DNA of 64,000 nucleotides, taken from contig NZ_CP048289.1 in the NCBI RefSeq assembly GCF_014084105.1, positions 6,333,922 to 6,397,921 on the forward strand. The letters run 5' to 3'. The notes below the pieces were generated by a model. That model was not told the origin of the DNA. It saw only the letters and a list, made by a program, of their open reading frames with translations, and made no database searches. Shown here piece after piece: positions 16,416-47,079 of this stretch (position 1 is its first letter; each line of letters opens with the position of its first letter). A program made the position numbers and the translations under genes. The stretch is from Streptacidiphilus sp. P02-A3a. GTDB taxonomy: Bacteria; Actinomycetota; Actinomycetes; Streptomycetales; Streptomycetaceae.

Positions 16416-16460
16416 CGGGAAAGGCGCCCCTACCGACCGGGAACGGCGGCTCCCTAGCCT
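16416..16460 (+). promoter_or_regulatory. Cluster promoter element, copy 1
   Basis: 45 bases that match 28869-28913 without gaps at 31 positions. The shared blocks are, in order, CGGGAA, CCCCT, CGAC, GGG, CGGC and CCTAGCCT, with identical spacing. TAGCCT fits a -10 hexamer, but no good -35 is present, which suggests an activator-dependent promoter. It lies 124 bases before the GTG of the N-hydroxylase and would drive the 16584-27432 operon. Confidence 0.65.
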
Positions 16461-16565
16461 CCATTACGTCACTCGGCGATGTTCCGGAGCAGTGACCCCA
16501 CCGGCGAAGAATCGCACGGCAACTGACCTCGCGTCCGCGCCGTCCGTCCGTGGGCCCACCGCAGT

Positions 16566-17848
16566 GTATCCGAGGGGGTAATTGTGACTGACCGCGAGGT
16601 CGGCGTCCTGGCCATCGGCGCGGGACCAGCGAACCTGGCCCTGGCCGCCGCCATCGAAGAAAGCGGCTCGACCGAACTGGCCGACAACACCCTGCTGCTC
16701 GAACAAGCACCCGACATCAAATGGCAACGCGACCTGCTCATGCCCTGGGCCCGCAGCCAGGTCTCCTTCCTCAAAGACCTCGTCACCCTCCGCAACCCCC
16801 GCAGCCGCTTCACCTTCCTCAACTTCCTCCACGACCAGGGCCGACTCGACCAATTCGTCAACCTCGGCACCTTCCACCCCCTCCGCTGGGAATTCTCCGA
16901 CTACCTCCAATGGGTAGCCCACAACCTCCACCACGTCACCATCCAATACGACTCCCGCGCCACCACCATCACCCCCGAACCCGACCACGACGGCACCCCC
17001 AAAGCCTGGAACGTCACCCTCACCAACGGCGACACCATCCACGCCCGCGACCTCGTCATCGGCGGCGGACGCGACCCCCACATCCCCCCCGTCTTCGCCA
17101 ACCTCCCCCCCGAACGCCTCATCCACAGCAGCCACTACCGCACCCGCATCAACACCATCAACCGCGACCAACCCCTCCACGCCGTCGTCGTCGGCGGAGC
17201 CCAAAGCGCCGCCGAAATGTTCTACGCACTCCACGACAACCTCCCCAACAGCCACATCACCATGCTCGTCCGCTCCATCGGACTCCAAAACTACCAAACC
17301 AGCAAATTCGTCAACGAGCTCTTCTTCCCCTCCTTCGTCGACGAATTCCACGACAGCCCACCCGACATGCGCGCCCAAATCCTCGACGAAATGAGACTCA
17401 CCAACTACGCAGGCCTCGCACCCCCCTTCCTCGACGAGCTCTACATGATGCTCTACCAAAACCGCCTCACCGGCACCACCCGCTCCGAAGTCATCCCCAT
17501 GACCGAAATCACCGACGCCCGCGAAGAAAACAACCGCATCACCCTCGAACTCCACGACCGCAAAACCGGCAAAACCGCACCCCTCACCTGCGACCTCATC
17601 CTCCTCGGCACCGGCTACGACACCCGCATGCCCACCATCATCCGCAACCTCGCCACCCACACCGGCACCACCGACATCACCGTCAACCGCAACTACCGCC
17701 TCGACCTCGGCCCCGCCAAAGCCGCCGTCTACCTCCAAGGCGTCAACGAAGCCACCCACGGCATCGCCGACTCCCTCATCAGCGTCCTCGCCCAACGCTC
17801 CAACGACATCCTCACCGACCTCCTCACCCGCCGCACCACCCCCGAACA
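16566..17848. repeat. Long direct repeat, copy A (1,283 bp)
   Basis: Covers the N-hydroxylase gene with its ribosome site. It matches 21846-23127 with only one substitution (A at 16910, G at 22190) and one missing C (C7 at 17105-17111, C6 at 22385-22390). The sequences diverge at once outside these borders, so this is a true duplication and not one continuous larger repeat. Confidence 0.97.
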
Positions 17849-17861
17849 GAGGATCAGCTGA
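16584..17861 (+). CDS. Flavin-dependent amino-acid N-hydroxylase (lysine/ornithine N-monooxygenase family)
   Basis: 425 residues, SidA/IucD/PvdA family. FAD motif GAGPAN at residues 12-17, the diagnostic MPWARSQVSFLKDLVTLRNP stretch, NADPH motif VVGGAQSAAEMFY near 203-215 and LLGTGYD near the C-terminus. It should hydroxylate the side-chain amine of lysine or ornithine using FAD, NADPH and O2. Next to MetRS-like and DAO-like genes, lysine and a role in N-N bond formation are more likely than siderophore synthesis. GTG start with AGGGGG ahead. Codon use (CTC for Leu, CAA and AAA common) differs sharply from neighbours. The stop overlaps the MetRS-like ATG. Confidence 0.92.
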   Translation: MTDREVGVLAIGAGPANLALAAAIEESGSTELADNTLLLEQAPDIKWQRDLLMPWARSQVSFLKDLVTLRNPRSRFTFLNFLHDQGRLDQFVNLGTFHPLRWEFSDYLQWVAHNLHHVTIQYDSRATTITPEPDHDGTPKAWNVTLTNGDTIHARDLVIGGGRDPHIPPVFANLPPERLIHSSHYRTRINTINRDQPLHAVVVGGAQSAAEMFYALHDNLPNSHITMLVRSIGLQNYQTSKFVNELFFPSFVDEFHDSPPDMRAQILDEMRLTNYAGLAPPFLDELYMMLYQNRLTGTTRSEVIPMTEITDAREENNRITLELHDRKTGKTAPLTCDLILLGTGYDTRMPTIIRNLATHTGTTDITVNRNYRLDLGPAKAAVYLQGVNEATHGIADSLISVLAQRSNDILTDLLTRRTTPEQRIS

Positions 17862-19396
17862 TGGAGCGCACGCTGGTGATCGCCCCCGGCCCGACCGCGA
17901 ACGGCGATCTGCACCTCGGCCACCTGGCCGGTCCCTTCCTGAGCGCGGACGTGTGCGCCAGGTACGCCCGTGCCGCCGGTCGCGACGTGCTCTTCGGCAC
18001 CGGCGTGCACTTCACCCAGAACTACATCGTCACCACCGCCTGGCGGCTGGGCCTGCCGCCGGAGGAGCTGCGGACCCGCTCGGCCGGGCAGGTGGAGGAG
18101 ACCCTGGCGGCGGTGGGCATCGACGCGGACGGGTTCGTCCGCTTCGACGACCGGTACGTGTCGGCGGTGCGCGACTTCTTCGGCCGCCTGCACCGGCTGG
18201 GCAAGCTCCGGTTGCGGGCGATGACCTTCCCGTACCTGGCCCGCACCGAGGAGTTCCTGACCGACGCCTACGTGCGCGGCGGCTGCCCGGTCTGCCTGGC
18301 CGTGGGCTGCGCCGGGCTCTGCGAGAACTGCGGCCACTGGATCGCGTCCGGCGAGCTGATCGACCCGCGCTCGACCCTGCACCCGGACGAGCCGGTGGAA
18401 CTGCGTGAGCAGCAGGTGCTGGTGCTGCCGCTGGAGGAGTACCGGGCCGCGCTGACGGAGTACTTCGCCCGGCAGAGCGCGACCATGCGGCCCCGGCTGG
18501 CCCGGCTGATCGAGGAGCTGCTGGCCGCCCCGCTGCCCGAGTACCCGATCACCCTGCCGATCGCCTGGGGCATCCCGGCGCCGTTCCCGGAGACCCCCGG
18601 GCAGGTGCTCTACGCCGATGCCGAGACCATCGCCTGGAGCATGCACTGCACCACCCTCGCCGCCGAGCAGCGCGGCGAGGTGCCGTCCGGGCAGGACGAG
18701 TTGTGGTCCACCGAGGCCGGCGCCAAGGTGGTGTACTTCTTCGGCTCGGACGCCGGTTTCGCCTTCGCGGTGGTCGGCGTGGCGATGCTGCTGGCGCTGG
18801 GCGGCTACGCGCTGCCCGAGCACTTCGTCACCAACGAGTTCTACGAGCTGGACAACGACAAGTTCTCCAGCAGCCGCGGCCACGTGGTGAGCGGCCGGGA
18901 GCTGGCCGCCGAGGTGCCGAGGGACCTGATCCGCTTCTACCTCGCCGCCACCGGACCGGACTTCCAGCGCACCAACTTCACCCGCGCGGCGATGACCAGC
19001 GTGACCGGGTCGCGGCTGGTGCAGCCGTGGAACCGGGTCGCGGACAAGGTAGACGCCTGGACCGGCGCGGGCCCGCTGCCGGTGTCCGGGCGGTCCCGGG
19101 CGGCCGCCGCGCGCCTGCTGGAACGTTTCGCCGGGGCCTACGACGCACGCCGCTTCAGCCTGACCGCGGCCGCCTTCACGCTGACCGAGCAGCTGGCCCG
19201 GCTGGACCAGTGGGAGGTGACGGCGGACGACGCCGGTGACTTCTGCCACGAGGTGGAGGTCTTCCTGCGCTGCGCGGCGCCGCTGCTGATCGACCTGGCC
19301 GCGCGGGCCCTGCCGGACACCGCCGTCCCGGCGGTGCCGCACGCCACCGAGGTCACCCCGGTGTCCCTGCCCCGGCTGGCCGAGGCCGTGCGGTGA
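17861..19396 (+). CDS. Methionyl-tRNA-synthetase-like enzyme, probable hydrazine synthetase subunit
   Basis: 511 residues of class I aminoacyl-tRNA synthetase fold. HIGH motif as HLGH (residues 18-21), a zinc-knuckle with CPVC and CENC near 142-158, and a KMSKS-like KFSSSRG at 334-340 whose second lysine is Ser. The length covers catalytic core plus a helical C-terminal part. In s56-p1 and formycin-type pathways a MetRS-like domain fused to a cupin joins N6-hydroxylysine to glycine or glutamate and forms the N-N bond. Here no cupin is fused; a cupin gene lies at 28965. Position directly after the N-hydroxylase and overlap with the DAO-like gene argue against a housekeeping MetRS. Confidence 0.88.
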   Translation: MERTLVIAPGPTANGDLHLGHLAGPFLSADVCARYARAAGRDVLFGTGVHFTQNYIVTTAWRLGLPPEELRTRSAGQVEETLAAVGIDADGFVRFDDRYVSAVRDFFGRLHRLGKLRLRAMTFPYLARTEEFLTDAYVRGGCPVCLAVGCAGLCENCGHWIASGELIDPRSTLHPDEPVELREQQVLVLPLEEYRAALTEYFARQSATMRPRLARLIEELLAAPLPEYPITLPIAWGIPAPFPETPGQVLYADAETIAWSMHCTTLAAEQRGEVPSGQDELWSTEAGAKVVYFFGSDAGFAFAVVGVAMLLALGGYALPEHFVTNEFYELDNDKFSSSRGHVVSGRELAAEVPRDLIRFYLAATGPDFQRTNFTRAAMTSVTGSRLVQPWNRVADKVDAWTGAGPLPVSGRSRAAAARLLERFAGAYDARRFSLTAAAFTLTEQLARLDQWEVTADDAGDFCHEVEVFLRCAAPLLIDLAARALPDTAVPAVPHATEVTPVSLPRLAEAVR

Positions 19397-20457
19397 CAAC
19401 GGCCGCCGCCCCGGCGCGGGTGGTCATCGTCGGTGCCGGGATCACCGGGCTGCTGACCGCCGTCGAGTGCGCGCTCGCGGGGCACCGGGTGACGGTGCTG
19501 GACCGGGGCCCGATCCCCAACCCGGAGTCGAGCTCCTACGACCAGCACCGGGCCATCCGGACGCTGGTGCCGGGCGACCCGGACGCCACCCGGCGGCTGG
19601 TCGGCGCCCACCGCCGGTGGCGGGAGCTGGAGCCGGTGCTGGGCGCCCGCTTCTACCGGCGGGTGGGCGTGGTCACCGCGTGGCCCCGGGAGCGGCTGGC
19701 GGCGGTGACCGCCTCGGCGGCCGACGCCGGGGTGGCGGTCCGGCCGGTCGAACCGGCGGCACTGCCGCACCTGGGCTTCCCCACCGGGTCGGTCGGCCTG
19801 CGCGAGGCGCAGGCCGGGGTGCTGCTGGCGGAGCGGGTGCTGCGGGCTGCCGCCCGGTGGCTGGCCGGGCATCCGGCGGTGACCCTGCGGCCGTACCGCG
19901 CGGTGGCCTCGGTGGCCGCCGACAGCGGGCGGGTCAAGCTCGCCGACGGCGACGTCCTCGGCGGCGACCTGGTGCTGGTCGCCGCCGGGCCGTGGTCCCG
20001 CGAGCTGGTCGAGCACCCGGTGGAGCTGCACCGGCAGACCATGGTCTACCTGCGCCCGCCGCGGCGGCTGGCGCGCTGGTGGCGGACCGCGCCCGCGGCC
20101 GGGGGCCTGGGCACGGACGGGCGGGCCTGGGTGCTGCCGCCGGTGGACGGCACGCTGCTGAAGATCAGCTCCGACGCGGTCCGCCGCGAGGCGGCCGACA
20201 CGGACTGCGCGGACGAGGACCAGGCGCCCTGGGCCGAGCGGCTGGCCGAGTCGGCGGTACTGCCGGAGCTGGACAGCTACACCGTGGTCGCGGTCCGGGC
20301 CTGCCACTACGCGACCGACGCCGCCACCGGCGGCGCGCACCTGGCCCGGGTGGGCCCCGCCGTCTGGTCGCGCGCGGCCTGCGGCGGCAGCGGCTTCGCC
20401 GCCGCCCCGCTGGTGGCGGCCCGGATCGTGGACGCGGCCAGGGGGGCAGCGGCGTGA
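19393..20457 (+). CDS. FAD-dependent D-amino-acid-oxidase-like enzyme
   Basis: 354 residues, DAO/glycine-oxidase fold: VIVGAGITG dinucleotide motif (GxGxxG at 14-19), EQ/DRG end of the second strand (VTVLDRGPIPN) and a C-terminal ACGGSGFAAAPLVA FAD stretch. In the lysine-derived hydrazine pathways a DAO-like flavoenzyme cleaves the lysine part from the N-N adduct and leaves a hydrazino acid; this gene is the natural candidate for that step. GTG start overlaps the MetRS-like stop (GTGA), so both are co-translated. Confidence 0.85.
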   Translation: MTTAAAPARVVIVGAGITGLLTAVECALAGHRVTVLDRGPIPNPESSSYDQHRAIRTLVPGDPDATRRLVGAHRRWRELEPVLGARFYRRVGVVTAWPRERLAAVTASAADAGVAVRPVEPAALPHLGFPTGSVGLREAQAGVLLAERVLRAAARWLAGHPAVTLRPYRAVASVAADSGRVKLADGDVLGGDLVLVAAGPWSRELVEHPVELHRQTMVYLRPPRRLARWWRTAPAAGGLGTDGRAWVLPPVDGTLLKISSDAVRREAADTDCADEDQAPWAERLAESAVLPELDSYTVVAVRACHYATDAATGGAHLARVGPAVWSRAACGGSGFAAAPLVAARIVDAARGAAA

Positions 20458-20521: not shown

Positions 20522-21799
20522 ATGAGCGAACAACCCGCACTCACCGGACCGGTCCTGGTCGTCGGCTACGTGGGTCTGACCATCCCGTTCATCAGGGCGT
20601 TCCAGCCGGAGAACTCGGTGGTCTACATCGAGGAGCCGGACGTCGCCCGCAAGCGGCAGGTGGCCGAGATCATCCAACAGGTGCCGTTCGCCCGCGAGGT
20701 GATCGAGTGGGAGCACCACCTGCCGGGCAAGGCGGACGAGTTCTACCAGGCCCACCCCGACCTCGACCCGGTCGCGGTGATCCCGGCGGTCGAGTACGCG
20801 ACGCCGTTCGCCGCCCGGCTCGCGGAGCGCTACGGCCTGCCCGGCGCGAGCCTGGGCGCCGCCCAGATCCTGCGGGACAAGGCGCTGCTGCGGCAGGTCA
20901 GTGCCGCCGCCGGGATCGCCAACCCGGCCAGCGTCCGGGTCGGCGGCGTGGAGGACGTGCTGGCCTTCATGCGCGGCCGGTCCGGACCGGTGGTGCTGAA
21001 GCCGGCCAACCGGCAGGCGTCCATCGGCACCCGCGTGGTGCACGACCCGGCCGAGGTCGAGCAGGCCTGGGCCGAGTGCCTGGTCCAGGACGAGGGCGTC
21101 TTCGTGCCCGACCGGCCGATGCCGCTGCAGATGCTGGCCGAGCAGTTCGTCCACGGGGACGAGTACAGCGTGGAGATGCTGGTGCGGGACGGCGTCCCGG
21201 TGTTCACCAACGTCACCGGCAAGCAGCTGTTCCCGGGCCCGTACCCGGTGGAGCTGGGCCACGTCGTCCCGGCCGACATCTCGGCGGAGCTGACCGGCCT
21301 GCTCGCGGCGCAGACCACCCGGCTGCTGCGGACGGTGGGCTTCGGCACCGGGATCACCCACTGCGAGTGGATCGTCTCGGACGGCGTGCCCTACCTGGTG
21401 GAGTGCGCGGGGCGGATGCCCGGCGACGCCATCCCGGACATCATCGAGGCGGCCTACCCGGTGGAGCTCTTCCGCGGCTACTACGCGCTGATGCGCGGCG
21501 AGCAGCCCGGCGCCCTGCCGGAGCGGGCCGAGTTCGGCACCGCGGTGCGGTTCCTGGCGCCCGGTCCCGGCACCGTGGAGCGCGTGCTCGGGGTCGAGGA
21601 GGCGGGGCGGGCCGAGGGCGTGCTGCTGGCCGACTGCCCGGTCCCGTCCGGCCACACCTACACCGGGCTGCGCAACTCCTGGGACCGCGCGGGCATCGTG
21701 ATGACCCGCGCGAAGACCTCGGCCGAGGCGCTGCGGCTGGCCGAGGCCGCCGCCGAGCTGATCACCATCGAGCTCCGGCCGGAGCCGCAGGCGCCGTGA
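20522..21799 (+). CDS. ATP-grasp carboxylate-amine ligase
   Basis: 425 residues. N-terminal Rossmann-like region, central ATP-grasp fold with the ATP-binding lysine stretch VVLKPANRQASIGTRVV and the metal-binding VECAGRMPGDAIPD, then a C-terminal domain. Such enzymes make an amide bond via an acyl phosphate. In a cluster with a hydrazino-acid route it probably couples that building block or another amino acid. Start at ATG 20522, six bases after GGAGG; the ATG at 20517 would be too close to it. 64 non-coding bases follow the DAO-like gene. Confidence 0.88.
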   Translation: MSEQPALTGPVLVVGYVGLTIPFIRAFQPENSVVYIEEPDVARKRQVAEIIQQVPFAREVIEWEHHLPGKADEFYQAHPDLDPVAVIPAVEYATPFAARLAERYGLPGASLGAAQILRDKALLRQVSAAAGIANPASVRVGGVEDVLAFMRGRSGPVVLKPANRQASIGTRVVHDPAEVEQAWAECLVQDEGVFVPDRPMPLQMLAEQFVHGDEYSVEMLVRDGVPVFTNVTGKQLFPGPYPVELGHVVPADISAELTGLLAAQTTRLLRTVGFGTGITHCEWIVSDGVPYLVECAGRMPGDAIPDIIEAAYPVELFRGYYALMRGEQPGALPERAEFGTAVRFLAPGPGTVERVLGVEEAGRAEGVLLADCPVPSGHTYTGLRNSWDRAGIVMTRAKTSAEALRLAEAAAELITIELRPEPQAP

Positions 21800-21845
21800 C
21801 CGCGCCGACCGCACCGCACGTCCTTCCTTCATCCACCGACGCACC

Positions 21846-23127
21846 GTATCCGAGGGGGTAATTGTGACTGACCGCGAGGTCGGCGTCCTGGCCATCGGCG
21901 CGGGACCAGCGAACCTGGCCCTGGCCGCCGCCATCGAAGAAAGCGGCTCGACCGAACTGGCCGACAACACCCTGCTGCTCGAACAAGCACCCGACATCAA
22001 ATGGCAACGCGACCTGCTCATGCCCTGGGCCCGCAGCCAGGTCTCCTTCCTCAAAGACCTCGTCACCCTCCGCAACCCCCGCAGCCGCTTCACCTTCCTC
22101 AACTTCCTCCACGACCAGGGCCGACTCGACCAATTCGTCAACCTCGGCACCTTCCACCCCCTCCGCTGGGAATTCTCCGACTACCTCCAGTGGGTAGCCC
22201 ACAACCTCCACCACGTCACCATCCAATACGACTCCCGCGCCACCACCATCACCCCCGAACCCGACCACGACGGCACCCCCAAAGCCTGGAACGTCACCCT
22301 CACCAACGGCGACACCATCCACGCCCGCGACCTCGTCATCGGCGGCGGACGCGACCCCCACATCCCCCCCGTCTTCGCCAACCTCCCCCCGAACGCCTCA
22401 TCCACAGCAGCCACTACCGCACCCGCATCAACACCATCAACCGCGACCAACCCCTCCACGCCGTCGTCGTCGGCGGAGCCCAAAGCGCCGCCGAAATGTT
22501 CTACGCACTCCACGACAACCTCCCCAACAGCCACATCACCATGCTCGTCCGCTCCATCGGACTCCAAAACTACCAAACCAGCAAATTCGTCAACGAGCTC
22601 TTCTTCCCCTCCTTCGTCGACGAATTCCACGACAGCCCACCCGACATGCGCGCCCAAATCCTCGACGAAATGAGACTCACCAACTACGCAGGCCTCGCAC
22701 CCCCCTTCCTCGACGAGCTCTACATGATGCTCTACCAAAACCGCCTCACCGGCACCACCCGCTCCGAAGTCATCCCCATGACCGAAATCACCGACGCCCG
22801 CGAAGAAAACAACCGCATCACCCTCGAACTCCACGACCGCAAAACCGGCAAAACCGCACCCCTCACCTGCGACCTCATCCTCCTCGGCACCGGCTACGAC
22901 ACCCGCATGCCCACCATCATCCGCAACCTCGCCACCCACACCGGCACCACCGACATCACCGTCAACCGCAACTACCGCCTCGACCTCGGCCCCGCCAAAG
23001 CCGCCGTCTACCTCCAAGGCGTCAACGAAGCCACCCACGGCATCGCCGACTCCCTCATCAGCGTCCTCGCCCAACGCTCCAACGACATCCTCACCGACCT
23101 CCTCACCCGCCGCACCACCCCCGAACA
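21846..23127. repeat. Long direct repeat, copy B (1,282 bp)
   Basis: Second copy of 16566-17848, 5.28 kb downstream in the same orientation, one base shorter in the C-tract at 22385-22390. Recombination between the copies would delete or amplify the MetRS-like, DAO-like and first ATP-grasp genes. Confidence 0.97.
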
Positions 23128-23149
23128 CTCCGCAGGAGGGGCAGCATGA
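21864..23149 (+). pseudogene. Frameshifted second copy of the N-hydroxylase gene
   Basis: Identical to 16584-17861 except one silent change and loss of one C in a C7 tract (codons about 174-176). Translation from GTG 21864 gives about 176 native residues and then a Ser/Thr/Pro-rich tail ending at 22673 (269 residues). The rest of the enzyme, including the NADPH motif and substrate part, stays open in the +1-shifted frame up to the stop at 23149, which still overlaps the ATG of the next gene. The short homopolymer could be a slipped-strand switch, a recent inactivating change or a sequencing error. Divergent last residues (EHSAGGAA in place of EQRIS) show fusion to a new downstream context. 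Confidence 0.9.
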
Positions 23150-24444
23150 CCACCACCAACGGGACGCTGCTGGTCGTCGGCAGCGGGCTGAAGGTGTACC
23201 GGGAGTACCTGGTGGCGCCGATCAGCCGCCGCGCCCGCGCCGCGGGTCTGGACCTGGTACTGCTCAACAACCTCAACCCCAGCTGGCAGCGCGAGTACTT
23301 CGACGAGGTGGTGGTCGCCAACCTCTTCGACTCGGAGACGCTGGCCGCCGCCGCCCGCGGGATCGCGGGCCGCCGCAACGTGGTCGGCCTGATGTGCTGG
23401 GACGAGCCGCTGGTCCTGGACGCGGGCCTGCTGGCCGCCGAGTTCGGCGTGCCCGGCCTGTCCGCCCGCGGCGTGCGCGGCTGCCGGGACAAGGAGCTCA
23501 CCCGGGCCGAGCTGACCGCCGCCGGGCTGCACCAGCCCGGCTTCGAGCTGACCACCGCGGTCGAGCGGGCCAGGGCGGCGGCCGAGCGGATCGGCTACCC
23601 GGTGGTGCTCAAGCCCCGGGCCATGGGCGCCAGCATCGGCGTGGTGTTCGCCACCGACGCGTCCGAACTGGACGAGGCCTTCCGCATCGCGCTGGCCGCG
23701 AGCGAGGTCGACCCGGGGCCGTACCGGGCGAGCGTCATCGTCGAGGAGTACGCGCCGGGGCCGGAGATCAGCATCGACGGCGCGGTGCACAAGGGCGAGT
23801 ACCTGCCGCTGTTCGTGGCCCGCAAGTACAGCAGCGACCACCCGTACTTCGAGGAGGTCGGCCACATCGTGGACGGGGCCGACCCGCTGTTGGCGGACCG
23901 CGACCTGATCGGCCACCTGGCGCGGGCGCACCAGGCGCTCGGCATCGAGGACGGGATCACCCACAGCGAGGTCCGGCTGACCGAGCGCGGACCGCTGATC
24001 ATCGAGGTCAACGGACGGCTCGGCGGGGACCTGATCCCCTTCCTGGGCCGGATCGCCACCGGCATCGAGCCCGGCGAGGTGCTCTTCGACGTGGCCACCG
24101 GTCAGCGGCCGGACACCGCGCCGTCCCGGCGGTCGGTGGCCGGGATCCGGTTCAACTACCCGGAGTCGGACTGCCTGCTGCGGTCGGTCACGGTGCCCAC
24201 CGGGGCGCCGGGGCTGGTGACCGCGGCGCCGATGGCCGAACCGGGCACCGCGCTGCGGCTGCCGCCCGGCGGCTACCTGGCCCGGCACTCCTTCGTGATC
24301 TGCGAGGCCGACGACACCCGCGGCGTCCAGGACCGGCTGACCGCGGCGGCGGCACTGGTCCGGCTGGACGCCGAACCGCTCGGCCCGCCGGTGCCGGACG
24401 CCCCGTTCGCCATGCCCGCCGGGCTGCTGGACGTGGACGAGTGA
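23146..24444 (+). CDS. ATP-grasp carboxylate-amine ligase
   Basis: 432 residues. Starts with LLVVGSGLKVYREYLVAP, then the ATP-grasp core with YPVVLKPRAMGASIGVVF and the metal-site EVNGRLGGDLIPFLGR. It is a clear paralogue of the C-terminal half of the double ATP-grasp protein at 43230-45701 (shared SWQ, GCRDK/NCRDK, FFEEVGH and NGRLGGD stretches). It should form an amide or peptide bond during assembly of the cluster product. ATG overlaps the stop of the broken N-hydroxylase copy. Confidence 0.88.
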   Translation: MTTTNGTLLVVGSGLKVYREYLVAPISRRARAAGLDLVLLNNLNPSWQREYFDEVVVANLFDSETLAAAARGIAGRRNVVGLMCWDEPLVLDAGLLAAEFGVPGLSARGVRGCRDKELTRAELTAAGLHQPGFELTTAVERARAAAERIGYPVVLKPRAMGASIGVVFATDASELDEAFRIALAASEVDPGPYRASVIVEEYAPGPEISIDGAVHKGEYLPLFVARKYSSDHPYFEEVGHIVDGADPLLADRDLIGHLARAHQALGIEDGITHSEVRLTERGPLIIEVNGRLGGDLIPFLGRIATGIEPGEVLFDVATGQRPDTAPSRRSVAGIRFNYPESDCLLRSVTVPTGAPGLVTAAPMAEPGTALRLPPGGYLARHSFVICEADDTRGVQDRLTAAAALVRLDAEPLGPPVPDAPFAMPAGLLDVDE

Positions 24445-24482
24445 CCGGCACCGGCACCACCGACGAGCTGAGGGACGGACAG

Positions 24483-33724: not shown

Positions 33725-33736
33725 GTCCGCCGGGCC

Positions 33737-38821: not shown

Positions 38822-39447
38822 ATCGACTTGATCCGGCTCGGCGCGAGGTAGGAGTGTCCACTCGGCGCGTCCTCGAACAGGGTGAGCCCGGCCTGGAACC
38901 TGCTGCCGCTGCCGACGACCACGCCGGGGGCGACCGTGCAACTCAGGCCGAAGAAGTTGTCGTCGCCCAGCTCGACGCTGTTCCCGCAGTGGAAGTTCGG
39001 CGCGATGAAGTTGTTCGAGCCCACGCGCGAGTAGTTCCCCACGGTGCAGTGGTAGTTCACGACGTTGTAGCCGCCCAGGACGGCGTTCACGCCGACGTAG
39101 CAGTTCGGGCCGATCACGTTGCCGCCGCCGGTGAGCTGCCCGGGGTCGATCCGGGAGCTCGGGTGGACGATGTTCTCGGCGACCAGCCCGTGCTTCTCGA
39201 TGAACCCCTGGACCAGCTCGCGCCGCTGCGCCGGATCGGCCACCGCCAGCACCACCCGGGTACCGGCGGTCGGCCGGTACTCCGCCAGCGCGACCCGGCG
39301 CTCCGCCGGGACCTGCGGCTCCTCGCCGGGCAGGCTCAGGTACCGCTCGATCCGGTAGCCGCCCGGGGCGGCCGGCGCCGCGTCCTCGACGTACCGGGAC
39401 ACCTCGACGGCGAACTTCCCGGCGCCGATCAGCAGCAACTCGGTCAC
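38809..39447 (-). CDS. NeuD-like hexapeptide-repeat acyltransferase
   Basis: 212 residues. N-terminal Rossmann-like LLLIGAGKFAVEVSRYV domain as in NeuD/PglD, then a left-handed beta helix of hexapeptide repeats (VIGPNCYVG, VGNYSRVG, VVVGSGSRF) with an active-site-like His in NYHCTVG. Such enzymes transfer acetyl or another acyl group to an amine or hydroxyl. GTG start overlapping the stop of the acyl-activating enzyme, so it could use the acyl group activated by its neighbours. Confidence 0.85.
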   Translation of the reverse strand: MTELLLIGAGKFAVEVSRYVEDAAPAAPGGYRIERYLSLPGEEPQVPAERRVALAEYRPTAGTRVVLAVADPAQRRELVQGFIEKHGLVAENIVHPSSRIDPGQLTGGGNVIGPNCYVGVNAVLGGYNVVNYHCTVGNYSRVGSNNFIAPNFHCGNSVELGDDNFFGLSCTVAPGVVVGSGSRFQAGLTLFEDAPSGHSYLAPSRIKSIRTL

Positions 39448-40808
39448 GGCAGGATCCGCTTCTTCTTGAACCGCTCGGAGACGGTGACGGCGTCGACCAG
39501 GTTGACCTTCGACGGGATCTTGAACGGGTCGACCTTGTCGCTCAGGAACTCGGCCACGTGCTTCCGCATCTGAGCCCTCGTCAACTCACCGTGCGGGCTG
39601 ACGTCCACGCACACCGACTGCCCGGTGATGGCGTTCGGCCGGCCGTACACCATGCAGTCGTCGATGAGCGGGCTGGACAGCAGGATGGACTCAAGCTCCA
39701 GCGGCAGCACCTTCTCACCGCCGACGTTGATGACCTCCTTGGCCCGGCCCTTGATCTTGATGAAGCCTTCCTCGTTCTCCTCGACCAGGTCCCCGGTCCG
39801 GAACCAGGAGTCCTCGGTGAGCGAGTCGCTGGGGTAGTTCAGGTAGCCGAGGAACTGCGTGTTGCTCTTCAACTGGAGCTCGCCGTCCACGATCCGGTAC
39901 TGCACGTTGGCGTCGGCGATCTTGAAGAAGGTGCTCCTGGAGGACTCGCTGGTGGTGGTCGCGATCCCGGTCTCGCTGGTGCCGAAGGTCTGCAGCAGCC
40001 GTGCCCGCGGGAAGGCCGCGTTGACCCGCTTCAGCAGTTCCTCCGGCATCGGTTCGGTGCCGTAGGTGATCAGGCGCAGGCTGCTGAGGTCGTGCTGCTC
40101 GTGGTAGCCCGCGATCATGATCAGGTTCAGGAAGGTGGGGCTGGTCGGCAGCAGCCGGATCTGGTACCGCTCGATCAGCGCGCAGATCTCGTCCGGGGTC
40201 CGCCGCGCGGGCAGGATCGCGGTGCCGCCCACGCGCAGCGCGCCGAGCAGCGAGTTGATCCCGCCGATGTGGTCGAACAGCAGGAACATCAGGATGTTGG
40301 CGGACCGGCCCCCGGTCCGCGCCCGCTTCCCCAGCTTCTCCTCGACCAGGGAGTCGAGGTTGTGCAGGATCGCCTTAGGGGCGCCGGTGCTGCCGCTGCT
40401 GAGCAGCACCAGACCGGACGCGCCCTGCTCGACCAACTGCCGGTAGTGGTCGCCGGGCACCGCCCCGGCATCGCCCAGGGTCTCGATCTCGACCGACTGG
40501 CCGACCCTGATGACGTGTTGCGGGGAGCACGACTCGGTGACCGTGGCCAGGGTCGCCCCGGTCAGCGAGACCACCGGGATGATGACGTTGCGGTTGAGGT
40601 AGAGCGCCAGCAGCATCGCCACCGACTGGAAGGAGAAGTCCCCGTTGAGGATCACGGCCTGCTGCGGCCGGATCTGACGCGACTCCAGTTCCTTGACCGA
40701 CTGCCGTATCCGGTCCGCCAGTTCGGCGTAGCTGTGCGGCGTTCCGCCGTCCACGACGGCGGTCCGGCCGCCTAGTTCGTCGAGCCTGCTGAGCAGTTCG
40801 TTTCGCAT
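39444..40808 (-). CDS. Acyl-activating enzyme (ANL superfamily AMP ligase)
   Basis: 454 residues, short for the family. Core motifs: P-loop-like LLSSGSTGAPKAIL near 145, TYGTEPMP, QTFGTSETG, WFRTGDLVEENEEGFIKIKGRAKE, and the C-terminal lysine in RFKKKRILP. It adenylates a carboxylic acid and passes it to CoA or, more likely here, to the ACP at 41537-41884. Start follows the SDR stop with no gap. The acid cannot be read from the sequence. Confidence 0.88.
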   Translation of the reverse strand: MRNELLSRLDELGGRTAVVDGGTPHSYAELADRIRQSVKELESRQIRPQQAVILNGDFSFQSVAMLLALYLNRNVIIPVVSLTGATLATVTESCSPQHVIRVGQSVEIETLGDAGAVPGDHYRQLVEQGASGLVLLSSGSTGAPKAILHNLDSLVEEKLGKRARTGGRSANILMFLLFDHIGGINSLLGALRVGGTAILPARRTPDEICALIERYQIRLLPTSPTFLNLIMIAGYHEQHDLSSLRLITYGTEPMPEELLKRVNAAFPRARLLQTFGTSETGIATTTSESSRSTFFKIADANVQYRIVDGELQLKSNTQFLGYLNYPSDSLTEDSWFRTGDLVEENEEGFIKIKGRAKEVINVGGEKVLPLELESILLSSPLIDDCMVYGRPNAITGQSVCVDVSPHGELTRAQMRKHVAEFLSDKVDPFKIPSKVNLVDAVTVSERFKKKRILP

Positions 40809-41507
40809 TCAGTGAACTCCGCCAAGGAAAAGTGTCTCACCGGTGACGAACCCGGATTCCCGGGATACCAGGAACTCGACGGGCCCGACTATGTCGTCCA
40901 TCGTGCACATGCGTTTGACCGTCTGCTGTTGGATCAGGGCGTCGATCTTCTCCGTGGGCACGGACCGGGTGAGCGCCGTGCGGACCGGCGGCAGGCCGAT
41001 GCCGTTGACCCGGATGTGGAAGTCCGCCAGCTCCTTGCTCATCACCCGGGTCAGCTGCTCGACCGCGGCCTTGCTGGCCGAGTACGCCAACTGGCCCGCC
41101 AGTGCCCACGGAACGGCGACGGTGGAGACGTTCAGGATCGCCGGAGCCGGTTCCTCGCTCTTCTGCAGCAGCTTGACGGTCTCCCGGCAGCAGTTCAGCA
41201 CCGCGAAGAAGTTCATGTCGAACATCCGGCGGGCGGTCTCGTCGGGGGTCATCATGAAGTGGTTCATGCTCGCGACACCGGCGTTGTTGACCACGGCGTC
41301 GAGGCGTCCGTGTTCGGTCCGGATGGCGCGGCACATGGACTTGATCGCCTTGGCGTCGCTGAGGTCCGCCTCGTGGTGGGTGTACCCCGGGTGGTCGATG
41401 GCCGACGGTTTCCGGCTGCACCCCACCACCTGGTGGCCGCGACCGAGGAAGTGCAGGGCCAGGGCCTTGCCAATTCCGGTCCGGGTGCCCGTGATCAGCA
41501 TGATCAT
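40809..41507 (-). CDS. Short-chain dehydrogenase/reductase (FabG-like)
   Basis: 232 residues, classical SDR: TGTRTGIGKAL cofactor motif, NNAGVAS, Ser in LNVSTVAV and the YSASK catalytic pair. Reduces a ketone or oxidises an alcohol with NAD(P)H, probably on the ACP- or CoA-bound acyl chain. It is followed without gap by the acyl-activating enzyme gene and sits 29 bases after the ACP gene. Confidence 0.9.
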   Translation of the reverse strand: MIMLITGTRTGIGKALALHFLGRGHQVVGCSRKPSAIDHPGYTHHEADLSDAKAIKSMCRAIRTEHGRLDAVVNNAGVASMNHFMMTPDETARRMFDMNFFAVLNCCRETVKLLQKSEEPAPAILNVSTVAVPWALAGQLAYSASKAAVEQLTRVMSKELADFHIRVNGIGLPPVRTALTRSVPTEKIDALIQQQTVKRMCTMDDIVGPVEFLVSRESGFVTGETLFLGGVH

Positions 41508-41536: not shown

Positions 41537-41884
41537 CTAGGCCTCGACCAGTTCCCCGTCCGCGCCCTGCTCGGCGTCCTCCCCGGCGCCGCGGGCCAGG
41601 TTGACCTCCTCCTCGATGAACTCGACCAATCGGCGGCCGCTGCTGAACGGGCTCACCCGGCGGGACACCGCCTTCTCCGAGGTCAGCGAGATCTCCACGT
41701 CGTACTCGTCCTCCAGCGCCTCCTCGATCAGCACCAGGAAGTTCACCAGGTGCATGGAGTCGAACATCCCGGCGTCGCCGTAGAGGACGATCCCCTCCAG
41801 GTCGTCGGTGGGGATCTTCTCCTCACGTCTCTCGTTGAGTTCCTCGACGACGTTCCTGATCAGCGCGAGCAGCTGGTCCTGCAT
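41537..41884 (-). CDS. Acyl carrier protein
   Basis: 115 residues from ATG 41884 (GGAAAGG ahead; an upstream in-frame start at 41914 is less likely). The phosphopantetheine site is Ser43 in FDSMHLVNFLVLIEEAL. Helices on both sides fit an ACP; the acidic C-terminal tail (from about residue 95) is longer than usual. It probably carries the acid loaded by the ANL enzyme while the SDR, halogenase or condensation protein acts. Confidence 0.83.
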   Translation of the reverse strand: MQDQLLALIRNVVEELNERREEKIPTDDLEGIVLYGDAGMFDSMHLVNFLVLIEEALEDEYDVEISLTSEKAVSRRVSPFSSGRRLVEFIEEEVNLARGAGEDAEQGADGELVEA

Positions 41885-41949: not shown

Positions 41950-43233
41950 TCAGTGGGCCCCGGCCGCCGGGGCGGGCTCCGCCGCCGTCGGCTGCCGCTG
42001 CCGCTCGGTCCGGGCGAGTCGGCCGCCGAGCGCGCTCACCGCCGCGGCGGTGACCAGGAACAGCGCGGCCAGCCCGATCAGGCCCGCGGTCCCCCGGCTC
42101 AGCAGCAGGGCCAGCAGCGCCGGGCCGACGATGCCGGCGGCCGAGGTGCCCAGGCTGAACACCGACAGGTACTCGGTGCGCTGCGCCTCGGGCGCGTGCC
42201 GGTACGACAGCTCCCAGCCGCCCGCGCCCTGGAGCAGCTCACCGCAGGTCAGCAGCGCCGTGGCGACCAGCAGCAGGACGATCGTCAGCCACTTGGCGCT
42301 GTGCGTGGTGGCGATCAGCGCCAGGCTGAAGGCGGCGAGGGCGAAGCCGGAGTTGCGCAGCGCCCTGGTGCCGTCGTGCGAGCTCCTGACGTTCTTGGCG
42401 AACTGCACCTGGAACGCGATCGCCAGCACGGTGTTCACCGTGAACAGCACGCTCAGCAGCCCGGCCGGGGCGTTGGTGGACTGCACCAGCCACAGCGGCA
42501 GGCCGATCCCGAGCAGCACCGTGTGCAGGAACATCACCCCGTTGAGCAGGGTCAGCCCCAGGTAGCGGCGATCCCGGACGACCGACAGCACGCCGCTGTG
42601 CCAGCGGGTCGGCCGCTCCTCGGCGGCGCTCCGGCCGACCTTCAGCAGCCCGAACACCCCGGCGGACGCCAGGCAGCACCCGGCTCCGGCCAGCAGGACC
42701 ACCCGCAGCAGCATGGCGCTGCCGATCAGGAACGGCGCCGCCGCCAGCGCGCCCACGGACATGCCGACGTTGATGACCGAGCTGATCACCCCGAGTATCC
42801 GGGTCCGGTCCTCGCCCCCGGCGACGGCGTTCACCAGCAGTTGCACCATCGGGAAGATCGGGCCCTGGGAGATCGCGAACAGCGAGGCGAAGAGCGTGAA
42901 GGCGACCATGCTGTGGGCGAAGGCCAGGGCCACGAACCAGATCGCCCGCCAGGCCTGGAGCAGCCGCAGCAGCCGCAGCGGGCCCCAGCGGGTGGCCAGC
43001 ATGCTCACCGGCACCGTGGTCAGGAAGCCGACCAGGCCCGCGATGGTGAGCCCGGTGCCGATCTGCGCGGTGCTCAGGCCGATGCCCTTGACGAAGTAGA
43101 CGGTGCCGCCGGCCAGGTACAGGCCGCTGCTGGTGGCGTAGACCACGACCCCGGTAGCGATCACCCGGCCGCCGTTGTTCGGCAGCGCGTAGCTGCTCAG
43201 CAGCCGTCGCAGGACGCCGGTACCGCCGCTCAC
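41950..43233 (-). CDS. MFS transporter, likely product exporter
   Basis: 427 residues with about 12 membrane helices and the MFS loop motif in the first half (MLATRWGPLRLLRLL). GTG start overlaps the stop of the double ATP-grasp gene (GTGA). In the middle of a biosynthetic operon it most likely exports the finished compound and gives self-resistance. Confidence 0.85.
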   Translation of the reverse strand: MSGGTGVLRRLLSSYALPNNGGRVIATGVVVYATSSGLYLAGGTVYFVKGIGLSTAQIGTGLTIAGLVGFLTTVPVSMLATRWGPLRLLRLLQAWRAIWFVALAFAHSMVAFTLFASLFAISQGPIFPMVQLLVNAVAGGEDRTRILGVISSVINVGMSVGALAAAPFLIGSAMLLRVVLLAGAGCCLASAGVFGLLKVGRSAAEERPTRWHSGVLSVVRDRRYLGLTLLNGVMFLHTVLLGIGLPLWLVQSTNAPAGLLSVLFTVNTVLAIAFQVQFAKNVRSSHDGTRALRNSGFALAAFSLALIATTHSAKWLTIVLLLVATALLTCGELLQGAGGWELSYRHAPEAQRTEYLSVFSLGTSAAGIVGPALLALLLSRGTAGLIGLAALFLVTAAAVSALGGRLARTERQRQPTAAEPAPAAGAH

Positions 43234-45701
43234 GCTGTCCCCCCGGCCTCGGTGATCGGCTCGACCTCGGCGCGGACCAGCGCGGACGCCCGGTCCAGCA
43301 CGGACTGGCAGTGCTCGGGCGTGTCACCGGTGACCACGATCGCGGCCAGCCTCGGCACGATGCCGCGCGGCGGCAGCAGCAGCCGGGTGCCGGGCTCCGC
43401 CAGCCGGACCACCTCGGCGACGCCGGACACGGCGGCGGCCTCGGTGACGTCCAGCGAGCGGACCACGCCGTCCTGCGGCGGGTAGAGGAACCGCACCTCG
43501 GCGCAGCTGTCCCGGGTCTGCCGCAGGTCGGGCTCGGCGCCGAGGGCGAGGTCGATCGCCGCGGCGGTCAGGTCGACGCCGGTAGCCAGGCGGCCCAGGT
43601 GCGGGATGAAGTCCCCGCCGAGGCGGCCGTTGAGCTCCACCAGGCGCGGCCCGGCGACGGTGAGCCGTACCTCGGCGTGGGTGACGCCGGTGTCGACGCC
43701 GAGCACCCGGTGCGCGTCGAGGACGAGCCGGCTGAGGTCGTCCGCCCACGGCTCCTGCCGCCAGGGCGCGACCAGGTGGCCGACCTCCTCGAAGAAGGGC
43801 GCGAAGCCGAGCCGCTTGCGGGCGACGTTGACCAGCCGCACCTCGCCGTCGCGGACCACCGAGTCCACGCTGACCTCGGGCCCGTCCAGGAACTCCTCCA
43901 GCAGCAGCCCGTCCAGCGCGTTGATGCCGGGGTACGCCGCGTCGGAGGCGTGGTGGTAGACGGCGCGCAGCTCGTCGGCGTCCTGGGCGATCACCACGCC
44001 CACGCTGCCCGCCAGCGCCCGGGGCTTGACCACCACCGGGTAGCCGATGGCCTCGGCCTCGCGCAGCGCCTGCTCCTGCCCCTGGACGTGGGCGAACCTG
44101 ATCCCGGCGACGTCGGCGTCCCGCAGCAGCCGCCGGGTGGACAGCTTGTCCCGGCAGTTGCGCACGGCGGTCGGGGACATGTGCGGCAGGCCCAGCCGCC
44201 GCGCCGCCTCGGCGGTCGCCTCCAGCAGTACCTCGTCCCAGGTGAACACCCCGGCCCGGCCGGGGGTTTCGGCGATGCTCGCGGCGACGGCGGCGGCCAG
44301 CGCCGCCGGTTCGACGCTCGCCACCCGGCGGTGTCCGCTGAGGTAGCGCTGCTGCCAGCTGGGCTCGGTGGGCGTGACCAGGGCCACCTCGGCGCGGGCG
44401 GCGGCGGCGACGAAGGCGTACTCGCGGTAGGCCTGGCCGCCGCTGCCGACCAGCACCACCCGGTCCGGGACGGTGGCGACGACCGGGGTGCACCGGAAGT
44501 CGAACCGGGCGACGGTCCGCTCCAGCGCGGCCTGGACCTCGGCCGTGCTGTCACCGCGGAACCGGAACCGGGCACCGGAGTGCTCGTAGCCGGGGAGGTC
44601 GGCCAGCGTCTGCCCGACCACGGGGACGCGTTCGGTGTAGGGGCCGCCGTCGGCGTCGAGTTGCGAGTCGGCCGCGGTGACCCGGCAGGGCCGGACCGCC
44701 GGGGTGGGCACCAGCAGCCAGCCGCCGCGCCGCGCCGGGCGCCGCGCCGCGGTCGCGTGGGCGGCGACCGGCAGCGGCGCGTCGGTCTGTAGCGCGAAGG
44801 CGATCTCCATCAGGTCGATGCCGTGCACCTCCCGCCACAGGAAGGGGATCTCCGCGCCGCCCGGGCGCGCGCCCACTTCGAGGACCTGTAGCGCCGGTGT
44901 CCCGGGCCGGTCCGAGCAGAAGAGCTCCAGGTGGAACACCCACGGCCCGGCCGACAGCGCGCGCGTCGTCCGGTCGGTGAACTCGCCTATGGCGTCCAGC
45001 AGTTCCGGGTCGTCCAGCTCCACCGAGCCGAGCGCCGCGCCCTCGGTGAAGCCGAGGCAGGTGTTCAGGTAGCGCGAGGCCCGCCAGGCGCCCAGTCCCT
45101 CCCCGGTGGCCACCCCGTCGACGTGCAGGATCTCGTCCGGCAGGTAGGGCTGGACCAGCATCGGCACGTCCGGGGGGAAGGCGTACGCGTCCAGCTCGGC
45201 GTCCGAGTCGATCCGGGTCACCCCGGCGCTGGCGGTGCCGCGGACCGGCTTGACCAGCACCGGCCAGCCGTGGGCGGTGGCGAAGGCGCGCACCGCGGCG
45301 TGGTCCGGCGCCGCCTCGGTGGCGGGCACCGGCACCCCGGCCGCCGCCAGCCGCCGGGCCATCACCAGCTTGTCGCGGAAGGGCGCGAGCGCGGCCAACT
45401 GCTCTCCAGGGATCCCGAGTTCCTCCCGCAGCTCGGCCGCCATGTCGAGGTCGACCTCGTGCAGCGCGACGATCCGCGCGGGCCGGCCGAACTCCCCGAT
45501 CAGGGAGGTGACCGCGGCCCGCACCTCCTTGCCGTCCTCGGTGCTGCTGACCAGCCTGACCGCCGCGGCGCCCTCGGGCAGCGAGCCGACGGCCCGCTGG
45601 GTCGTCACATAGCTGACCCGACGGGTGCGGTGGTCCACGTAGGAGCCGTAGTCCGCGTAACTGTCGCTCCACCGGTGCAGGACGATGAGATGATCTGACA
45701 C
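43230..45701 (-). CDS. Double ATP-grasp ligase (two fused ligase modules)
   Basis: 823 residues. Module 1 (about 1-400): WPVLVKPVRGTASAGVTRI and EVGARPGGAEIPFLWREV. Module 2 (about 420-823): YPVVVKPRALAGSVGVVI and ELNGRLGGDFIPHLGR; this half is a clear paralogue of the ligase at 23146-24444. Two amide-forming steps by one chain are likely. The GTG at 45701 follows GGGAGGGG and is preferred over the longer open frame to 46004. It links the leftward operon with the rightward hydrazine operon through shared ancestry. Confidence 0.88.
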   Translation of the reverse strand: MSDHLIVLHRWSDSYADYGSYVDHRTRRVSYVTTQRAVGSLPEGAAAVRLVSSTEDGKEVRAAVTSLIGEFGRPARIVALHEVDLDMAAELREELGIPGEQLAALAPFRDKLVMARRLAAAGVPVPATEAAPDHAAVRAFATAHGWPVLVKPVRGTASAGVTRIDSDAELDAYAFPPDVPMLVQPYLPDEILHVDGVATGEGLGAWRASRYLNTCLGFTEGAALGSVELDDPELLDAIGEFTDRTTRALSAGPWVFHLELFCSDRPGTPALQVLEVGARPGGAEIPFLWREVHGIDLMEIAFALQTDAPLPVAAHATAARRPARRGGWLLVPTPAVRPCRVTAADSQLDADGGPYTERVPVVGQTLADLPGYEHSGARFRFRGDSTAEVQAALERTVARFDFRCTPVVATVPDRVVLVGSGGQAYREYAFVAAAARAEVALVTPTEPSWQQRYLSGHRRVASVEPAALAAAVAASIAETPGRAGVFTWDEVLLEATAEAARRLGLPHMSPTAVRNCRDKLSTRRLLRDADVAGIRFAHVQGQEQALREAEAIGYPVVVKPRALAGSVGVVIAQDADELRAVYHHASDAAYPGINALDGLLLEEFLDGPEVSVDSVVRDGEVRLVNVARKRLGFAPFFEEVGHLVAPWRQEPWADDLSRLVLDAHRVLGVDTGVTHAEVRLTVAGPRLVELNGRLGGDFIPHLGRLATGVDLTAAAIDLALGAEPDLRQTRDSCAEVRFLYPPQDGVVRSLDVTEAAAVSGVAEVVRLAEPGTRLLLPPRGIVPRLAAIVVTGDTPEHCQSVLDRASALVRAEVEPITEAGGTA

Positions 45702-45783
45702 TTCCCCTCCCAAAGGGACTGATCTGCGGGTGAACGGGTCGGCCGGGAGGGGCCGAGGTACGGCGGGGAACGGCGCGGAACCG

Positions 45784-47079
45784 CTATGCGGATTTCTCGT
45801 CGGCGGCGGAGACGATGACGTCCTGGAGGTCGAGCAGCAATTCGGTGACTCCGTCGAAACCGGTGGTCGACGAATTCTCCCGGAGCGTGCAGGTGAGCGC
45901 TTCACCATCCTGGACCTGCAGGTAGAGCGGAGCCCCGATGTTCCGCCCCGCAGTACCGGTCTCCATATCCTGCCGGGTCGGCGCCTGATCCTTCTGGTAT
46001 TCACCCAGATAGTTGAAGAAGTAGCGGAAGAACCCGCTGACCGAGCCGTCGAAGGAGCCGTTCACGGTTCCGGTGTAACCGAACTTCCGGCCGATTTCGA
46101 GCACGTCGTCCACATTGTGCGAACCGTGCTTGTAGGAGCGGAGGGTCTCCCAGTGGACCCGTCCCACGAAGGTGTCGAATTCCTCGTCCGGGTCGACCGT
46201 CACCAGCAGCGGAATGATCTGGTTCTGCGCCGCGACCAGGTTCTCCCAGCGGGGGTCGCTCCGGTTGTTGGTGTAGACCGCGACCAGCAGCCGACGGCGG
46301 CCGGTCTGCCGGCTCAGCGCCACGCAGAAGGCACTGAGCAGGACCGAGGGGACGGAGACCTTGAGCCGCTCGGCGGTCCGGTGCGCGGCGGTGGCCGCCG
46401 CCTCGGAGCCGCACCGGGCCCAGCGGCTGGTGACCGCCTCCGGCGCGGGATCCCGCTCCATGTCCGGGGCCGCCTCGAAGACCTGCTGCCAGTGCTTGCG
46501 CGCCGAGCGCCGCCGCGACTGCCGGGCCTCGGACCACTGCTCGGCGGCCAGCTCACGGCAGTTGGGCGGATCGGCGGACACCGGCCGACCGGCCAGCAGG
46601 TCCTGGAACTCCTGCTGCAACTGGTTGATCGCCCAGGCGTCGACGGCGATGTGGTGGAAGCACACCACCAGCCGCGACGGCTCGCCGGACGAGGTGACCA
46701 GCCGCGCCCGCCACGGCCGGTCCGCCGCCAGGTCGAACGGCGTCGCCGCCAGTTCCTCGGCGACCCGTTCGGCCTCCGCCTCGACCACGCCGAGGGACGC
46801 CGGGGCGGCCGCCCAGACCAGCTGGACCAGGCCGTGCTCGGCGGTCTCCTGGTACCGGGTGCGCAGCGACTCATGGCGCCGTTCGAGGGTCTCCAGCGCG
46901 CGCTCGACCGATTCGGCCGTCGTTCCGGGCGGCAGGCTCCACACTTGCGGCAGATTGCAGGCCACCGCCGGGAGTTCTGCTATGGATCGCCACAGGGAGA
47001 GTTGCCCGAAGGTGACGGGACCCTTATCGATAACGGACTGCTGCACGGTTCCGAAACCTCGCGGAAAGAAATTCGACAT
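45784..47079 (-). CDS. Free-standing NRPS-type condensation domain protein
   Basis: 431 residues, complete condensation fold with the catalytic HHIAVDA at residues 142-148 and the later NYLG/bridge-like region. No adenylation or carrier domain is attached. It may join the ACP-bound acyl group to an amine such as a hydrazine or a ligated dipeptide. First gene of the leftward operon, 82 bases before the double ATP-grasp gene. Confidence 0.87.
   Translation of the reverse strand: MSNFFPRGFGTVQQSVIDKGPVTFGQLSLWRSIAELPAVACNLPQVWSLPPGTTAESVERALETLERRHESLRTRYQETAEHGLVQLVWAAAPASLGVVEAEAERVAEELAATPFDLAADRPWRARLVTSSGEPSRLVVCFHHIAVDAWAINQLQQEFQDLLAGRPVSADPPNCRELAAEQWSEARQSRRRSARKHWQQVFEAAPDMERDPAPEAVTSRWARCGSEAAATAAHRTAERLKVSVPSVLLSAFCVALSRQTGRRRLLVAVYTNNRSDPRWENLVAAQNQIIPLLVTVDPDEEFDTFVGRVHWETLRSYKHGSHNVDDVLEIGRKFGYTGTVNGSFDGSVSGFFRYFFNYLGEYQKDQAPTRQDMETGTAGRNIGAPLYLQVQDGEALTCTLRENSSTTGFDGVTELLLDLQDVIVSAADEKSA

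Follow-up and report, generated by a model that had tools for sequence, protein, structure and literature searches.

The 64,000-nucleotide stretch of Streptacidiphilus sp. P02-A3a analyzed here (the window; positions 6,333,922-6,397,921 of a single-contig 9.33-Mb genome) probably holds two independent biosynthetic gene clusters side by side. Cluster A (16.6-31.9 kb) is of the hydrazine type and combines a split hydrazine synthetase with ligases and tailoring genes, among them a TsrM-type tryptophan methyltransferase, and cluster B (35.1-47.1 kb) carries a cassette for acyl chlorination like that of chloramphenicol biosynthesis. The original prediction, made from the letters of this stretch, had taken both for one probable gene cluster with a small peptide-like, possibly halogenated product of the hydrazine or azo/diazo type. 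Gene identities, catalytic motifs and the separate locations of the two clusters in other genomes were computed. Gene calling in the window relied on codon usage; the genes from 9.6 to 55.7 kb were for the most part searched with Pfam, and many with NCBIfam. Rfam and tRNA scans of the window gave no matches.

The separation is concluded from two genomes of the Kitasatospora group (the genus labels of several relative genomes, such as these, are presumed) in which cluster B is complete and colinear from the antiporter to the condensation domain (stretches L130 and L197). Cluster A lies on another contig in one of them (G481) and 5.1 Mb away in the other (G496), so that A and B are linked in neither of the two other genomes that contain both. 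Among 27 genomes with cluster A, two have a full-length orthologue of the double ATP-grasp protein of cluster B at 60% identity or more (78% in G034, which equal coordinates suggest is the same genome as G481, and 61% in G027), on a contig different from that of A in each case; G027 has no CmlS in the stretch analyzed. Ten genomes of the family carry CmlS, and the surroundings were covered in the window's genome and seven others (G589 and G709 were left out). B-type cassettes also occur in G540 and G767, where no double ATP-grasp gene lies within the 20 kb examined. The methionyl-tRNA synthetase (MetRS)-like protein of cluster A has no match in G540 at E <= 1e-60, and in G767 there are just two, of 36-37%. 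Conversely, CmlS, the NeuD-like protein and the carrier protein are found in none of 78 cluster A loci, even at a looser threshold, nor is the condensation domain at 40% identity or more. That hydrazine formation and halogenation belong to one pathway with one product is thus not supported, as B stands complete elsewhere with no adjacent A.

A single pathway, in which A and B jointly make a halogenated hydrazine peptide, appears improbable to us, although several observations speak for it and against our separation. The clusters adjoin here with a spacer of only three genes, and the three genomes in which a complete B was observed (G481, G496 and that of the window) all carry A too, even though a MetRS-like relative at E <= 1e-150 occurs in just 26 of 394 genomes of the family. 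As G481 and G496 come from a single genus (g154), the source of 14 of the 26, this co-occurrence does not lend itself to weighing either way. In addition, 13 genus-mates of the strain show no CmlS match at 1e-100 and no MetRS match at 1e-150, so that both clusters may have been gained together; cooperation at a distance is compatible with unlinked locations; and the A loci were taken with flanks of at most 10 kb per side. Against a joint pathway stand the unlinked locations, the cassettes in G540 and G767, where the best MetRS-like match is below threshold or 37%, and the exporters, since B encodes one itself and the relatives of A encode another.

The genes of cluster A are as follows.

16584..17861, +, N-hydroxylase copy 1, Lys/Orn type, intact, 425 aa (PF13434, 305 bits)
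17861..19396, +, MetRS-like half of the split hydrazine synthetase, 511 aa (PF09334, 208 bits; HLGH and KFSSS motifs)
19393..20457, +, DAO-like FAD oxidase (PF01266, 94 bits)
20522..21799, +, ATP-grasp ligase 1, L-amino acid ligase type (PF13535, PF18603)
21840..23149, +, N-hydroxylase copy 2, near-identical, frameshifted (alignment to copy 1, frame reading)
23146..24444, +, ATP-grasp ligase 2 (PF13535)
24441..25691, +, group-D type flavin monooxygenase (NF045629 HsaA, 141 bits, below the cut-off of 450; PDB matches; tree)
25708..27432, +, TsrM-type cobalamin/radical SAM tryptophan 2-C-methyltransferase (TIGR04428, 1033 bits, cut-off 500; PF04055; CSYRCSHC)
27954..28811, +, LuxR-family response regulator (PF00072, PF00196)
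28989..29363, +, cupin half of the hydrazine synthetase (PF07883, 48 bits; H48-x-H50-x3-E54-x33-H88)
29360..29689, +, 109-aa protein outside the named families, predicted to fold as an avidin-like barrel of eight strands (fold search)
29686..31077, +, BBE-type FAD oxidase (PF01565, PF08031)
31116..31940, +, DDAH / arginine dihydrolase-like enzyme (NF045659, 456 bits, cut-off 300)

The MetRS-like protein has PyrN as its nearest solved structure, closer than true MetRS, and retains motifs of both the HIGH and the KMSKS type. In the cupin, H48, H50, E54 and H88 have a spacing identical to that of H50, H52, E56 and H90 of PyrN, which are catalytic there, the E56A exchange having abolished product formation (PMC8664883); the motif is kept in all 53 relatives called at a length of at least 115 aa. 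Together with the N-hydroxylase of the lysine/ornithine type encoded in the same cluster, these features support the view, held already in the original prediction, that cluster A is a real N-N-forming gene set joined to amide ligases. The predicted hydrazine set of N-hydroxylase, MetRS-like protein, DAO-like oxidase and cupin was recovered in full, and the four ATP-grasp modules proposed for the region are there as two single proteins in A and one two-module protein in B.

The description of the tailoring enzymes, on the other hand, had to be revised. The enzyme previously called ACAD-like is closest to group-D flavin monooxygenases, its best PDB matches including Rv3094c (142 bits) and XiaF (96 bits), and on these and the HsaA match an acyl-CoA dehydrogenase-like identity is rejected. 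Group-D chemistry is further indicated by a flavin reductase gene directly before the monooxygenase gene in Streptomyces scabiei 87.22 (L067), and by another at a distance of about 8 kb in Saccharothrix carnea (L034); both loci have a cluster A core that lacks TsrM. The radical SAM enzyme had been recognized as such, its identity as TsrM had not: it gives 1070 bits to the solved TsrM structure 6wte and contains B12 and radical SAM domains with the CxxxCxxC motif, which shifts the likely chemistry to tryptophan. Missing from the earlier gene list, whose families are otherwise real, were the second N-hydroxylase, the LuxR regulator, the 109-aa protein and the DDAH-like enzyme. The last of these is closer among PDB sequences to Sll1336 and Alr4995, which we take, as does NCBIfam, to be arginine dihydrolases, than to DDAH. 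The 109-aa protein is conserved, and the fold search returned avidin-like barrels and no function; judged from the predicted fold, it could bind or cyclise the product.

Cluster A is a member of a widespread actinobacterial family. A search with a 19-sequence alignment of the MetRS-like protein against one genome per species yielded 207 relatives, and the 78 best distinct loci were examined; 17 of the 78 stretches are shorter than 21 kb. Genes were counted at 40% identity or more with half coverage, and a separate count was made at a looser threshold. In detail, the N-hydroxylase was found in 77 loci, the DAO-like oxidase in 68, ATP-grasp ligase 2 in 61, the cupin in 60, the monooxygenase in 54, the 109-aa protein in 53, the BBE-type oxidase and ATP-grasp ligase 1 in 42 each, the LuxR regulator in 25, the DDAH-like enzyme in 23 and TsrM in 20. 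The double ATP-grasp protein matched in one locus. At the looser threshold, weak condensation-domain matches appeared in L061 (26%) and L089 (23%), a ligase match in L061 (24%), and double ATP-grasp matches in L026, L056 and L066 (37-41%) that are shared with single ATP-grasp genes. TsrM alone is no marker of the family, as its homologues (56-59%) in six genomes of another taxonomic family (L172-L177) had no match to hydrazine genes within stretches of 20 kb. Pantoea and Klebsiella plasmids (NZ_CP059085, NZ_CP063918, NZ_CP143400, NZ_CP143523 and NZ_CP134760; H6-H10) carry annotated tRNA-ligase-like and cupin genes where they match the MetRS-like protein of the window at about 42% identity over 78% of its length. 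Named plasmid-borne copies were rejected as a reading, since the matches obtained were partial or distant.

Within the family, TsrM tracks two other features. All 19 loci with two monooxygenase paralogues contain TsrM and only one of the 35 with a single monooxygenase does (L028); seen from the other side, the duplication occurs in 19 of 20 TsrM loci and in none of 34 loci without TsrM, where a second paralogue outside the analyzed flanks would go unseen. The window monooxygenase is the orthologue of the second paralogue and groups with that of Actinacidiphila (98/90); as to its being a chimera of both paralogues, sliding identity reveals no stretch clearly closer to the first. The second feature is the MetRS-like pocket. 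Positions 208, 212, 253 and 439 (of 511) are the only ones that are fixed in 19 TsrM-linked proteins and whose residues there reach 5% at most among 41 proteins without TsrM. The 19 comprise the window protein and those of 18 TsrM loci; in the other two, L044 and L071, as in L078 and L089, the protein was called too short. Left out of this count were L013, L015 and L024, all with Asp253, whose contigs end before TsrM, and eleven distant loci with Trp, Ser or Asn at position 253 (L072, L074, L075, L077, L079-L084 and L088). At position 253 the TsrM-linked proteins have Asp, and the 41 others have Asn (30) or His (11). In alignments of 16-27% identity this position falls on Trp253 of E. coli MetRS, which we take, also as to numbering, to be a residue of the side-chain pocket; in tryptophanyl-tRNA synthetase an Asp contacts the indole. 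The presumed side-chain pocket is lined by the small residues Gly10, Ser260, Ala298, Ala301 and Gly306, and where E. coli MetRS has His301, presumably also a pocket residue, PyrN has an Arg and the window protein Phe302, so that glutamate would be an unlikely substrate. L028 groups with TsrM-negative Kutzneria and Amycolatopsis loci (92/84, sub-star support), yet it has kept Asp253. Read from the tree, a single gain and a single loss may suffice to explain the history of TsrM, and for this reason the correlation with the MetRS-like protein is suggestive only.

Two readings of the substrate follow. Classical hydrazinoacetic acid chemistry, in which the MetRS-like enzyme would use glycine and (2-methyl)tryptophan would be a second building block joined by an ATP-grasp ligase, has in our judgement an even chance of being correct: according to section 4.1.2.1 of PMC11705231, the s56-p1, triacsin and azaserine pathways run through hydrazinoacetic acid formed from glycine, and two ATP-grasp ligases are present. 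A pocket that is lined by small residues and varies with TsrM, as far as alignments of 16-27% identity reveal it, would be unexpected if glycine were the fixed substrate. The correlation with the monooxygenase duplication and Asp253 suggests, from sequence comparison, that the N-N bond may be formed on methylated tryptophan itself. In the fully developed form, which we hold to be rather unlikely, the MetRS-like enzyme would activate (2-methyl)tryptophan with Asp253 reading the indole N-H, alpha-hydrazino-(2-methyl)tryptophan would result, and after oxidation of the indole by the duplicated group-D monooxygenases the terminal hydrazine nitrogen would close onto C2, giving a methyl-capped pyridazino-indoline. 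If true, a hydrazine synthetase would here build the skeleton of a tryptophan alkaloid. A further alternative concerns the state of the cluster. That cluster A is here a decaying remnant with no product seems unlikely, though the frameshift of N-hydroxylase copy 2, a single C deleted from a C run, counts in its favour, as does the lack of an exporter and of the first monooxygenase on the spot. The one-base gap in a C run is possibly a sequencing error, copy 1 is intact and the remaining reading frames of the cluster are open.

The missing genes are moreover present in the same genome. An MFS exporter of one family (at least 45% identity) is found in all 20 TsrM loci and in 51 of the 78 overall, and nine such exporters used as queries had no match in the window. 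Open frames for the exporter, at 76%, and for the first monooxygenase, at 84%, lie side by side at 3,347,989-3,350,584 of the genome (L182, L183), 3.0 Mb from the window, where the pair stands alone close to mshC (TIGR03447, 662 bits). Their survival points to a cluster that was split and not lost, and cluster A of this genome thus looks split rather than dead. In L130 and L197, cluster B is followed by orthologues of the genes that lie on the mshC side of this pair, as far as mshC, and the position of B beside the same genes in two Kitasatospora-group genomes suggests an insertion hot spot.

The two N-hydroxylase genes are identical at 1285 of 1289 positions (16560-17848 against 21840-23127; 99.7% of the DNA, one gap). 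A pair at the same two places occurs also in L012 and L014 (copies 91.5 and 95.2% alike within the genome), in five Lentzea loci (72-75% alike) and in the shorter L024. The near-identity here fits gene conversion, with recent duplication as the alternative. Both copies (16584-17861, 22496-23149) favour A-ending Lys, Glu and Gln codons and CTC, at 0.86 each in copy 1, whereas A-ending codons for these residues do not exceed 0.38 in other window genes above 150 aa or 0.36 in the listed relatives. Although the protein is ordinary, its codon usage makes the N-hydroxylase a likely foreign allele that now occupies both places.

Cluster B and the spacer before it contain the following genes.

31906..35039, spacer: AraC/DJ-1 regulator (-), isochorismatase (+) and a protein without family match (+) (Pfam)
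35078..36364, -, cation:proton antiporter, cmlN analogue by predicted function (PF00999; CPA2 family below cut-off; colinear in L130 and L197)
36479..37018, -, serine hydrolase, RBBP9 type (PF06821)
37023..38741, -, CmlS flavin halogenase (NF033113, 1076 bits, cut-off 900; PDB 3i3l, 934 bits)
38809..39447, -, NeuD-like hexapeptide acyltransferase (TIGR03570, 84.5 bits, below the cut-off of 160.8)
39444..40808, -, ANL acyl-adenylating ligase, CmlK position (PF00501)
40809..41507, -, SDR, CmlJ position (PF13561)
41537..41884, -, carrier protein, CmlM position (DSM motif; no family match; 81% orthologue in L130)
41950..43233, -, MFS exporter (PF07690)
43230..45701, -, double ATP-grasp ligase, 823 aa (PF13535, PF18603)
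45784..47079, -, free condensation domain (PF00668, 122 bits; HHIAVDA)

The order carrier protein, SDR, ligase, (NeuD), CmlS corresponds to cmlM-cmlJ-cmlK-cmlS, the ligase, SDR and carrier protein being placed by family and order; table 3 of PMC4249514 gives this order for the chloramphenicol genes, with cmlN for an antiporter. The CmlS-like halogenase, ANL ligase, SDR, MFS exporter and condensation domain, and in cluster A the BBE-like oxidase, were already correctly named. The NeuD-like assignment stands as a family match below its cut-off, and that of the acyl carrier protein is borne out by the DSM motif and the position and not by a family match. The double ATP-grasp protein has 118 homologues at E <= 1e-20, and together with the free condensation domain it suggests an acylated small peptide. 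The spacer genes had no match in the stretches L130, L133 and L197, and in the 78 cluster A loci there were AraC-type matches in eight and an isochorismatase match in one. Cassettes of the Cml type recur in other settings (L198-L202).

The genes allow the following scheme, in which all substrates, the sequence of reactions and the two products are inferred. The N-hydroxylase of cluster A would form an N-hydroxy diamino acid, presumably N6-hydroxylysine, to whose hydroxylamine oxygen the MetRS-like enzyme would couple an adenylated amino acid. The stand-alone cupin would rearrange the ester to form the N-N bond, and the DAO-like oxidase, presumed to cleave the hydrazine conjugate, would release a free hydrazino acid, which the ATP-grasp ligases would place in an amide or hydrazide. 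TsrM would methylate tryptophan at C2, and group-D monooxygenase(s) and the BBE-type oxidase would oxidise the (2-methyl)indole part. In cluster B, the cmlM-J-K-S type cassette would load, chlorinate and process an acyl group on the carrier protein, and the free condensation domain would transfer it to an amine, probably of a small peptide that the double ATP-grasp protein would assemble. The halogenation and the product of cluster B are predictions, and the acyl group may be dichloroacetyl by analogy with chloramphenicol.

On both sides of the clusters (9625-15930 and 47749-55650) the scanned genes resemble sugar or polyol catabolism, with GntR, LacI, an oxidoreductase, DUF993, a TIM barrel and a glycerate kinase, and ROK, an aldehyde dehydrogenase, ThuA and an ABC transporter. 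The clusters may thus have been inserted into a catabolic region.

Among described systems, pyrazomycin biosynthesis resembles cluster A in its N-hydroxylase, MetRS-like enzyme and cupin, with identical cupin residues and spacing. Cupin and MetRS are fused in PyrN, whereas they are separate genes in cluster A as in RHS1 and albofungin (Afn8/Afn9), and the tailoring genes differ. The s56-p1, triacsin and azaserine / N-nitroglycine clusters share the Lys-type N-hydroxylase, MetRS/cupin and DAO-like oxidase. However, the azaserine, triacsin and N-nitroglycine type uses a fused cupin-MetRS(-carrier) with a nonribosomal peptide synthetase (NRPS) or carrier-bound hydrazinoacetyl, while cupin and MetRS-like protein of cluster A stand alone and no carrier protein or NRPS was found by Pfam among its scanned genes. 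Cluster A is therefore neither an azaserine nor an N-nitroglycine cluster as judged from the published gene lists (for N-nitroglycine, those in PMC13274452); that paper reports labelling of N-nitroglycine from 15N-lysine and 15N-glycine through hydrazinoacetate and an azaserine-like cluster, unlike A. The TsrM-type protein, at twice the TIGR04428 cut-off, recalls thiostrepton and is here tied to hydrazine genes; no thiopeptide-type enzyme occurs among the Pfam-scanned genes, small peptide genes not having been sought. In open-licence PubMed Central papers, mostly judged by title and the start of the abstract, we found no cluster that joins TsrM to hydrazine genes or resembles B and no named product of the cluster A family, which agrees with the original prediction, whose author knew of no described cluster with this combination (MIBiG and subscription papers lie outside this scope).

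In one branch of the cluster A family, a hydrazine synthetase is linked with methylation of tryptophan at C2, which offers a concrete test of how such synthetases choose their amino acid. Cluster B shares with chloramphenicol the order of carrier protein, SDR, ligase and CmlS and the antiporter, but has a NeuD-like gene inserted and, in place of CmlP, a free condensation domain together with a double ATP-grasp ligase, and no p-aminophenylalanine genes were found among the scanned window genes. It represents the chloramphenicol acyl-halogenation cassette in a different setting. As the roles of the cassette genes in dichloroacetylation are called obscure in PMC4249514, a comparison of B, L198-L202 and chloramphenicol could define the minimal gene set for acyl halogenation.

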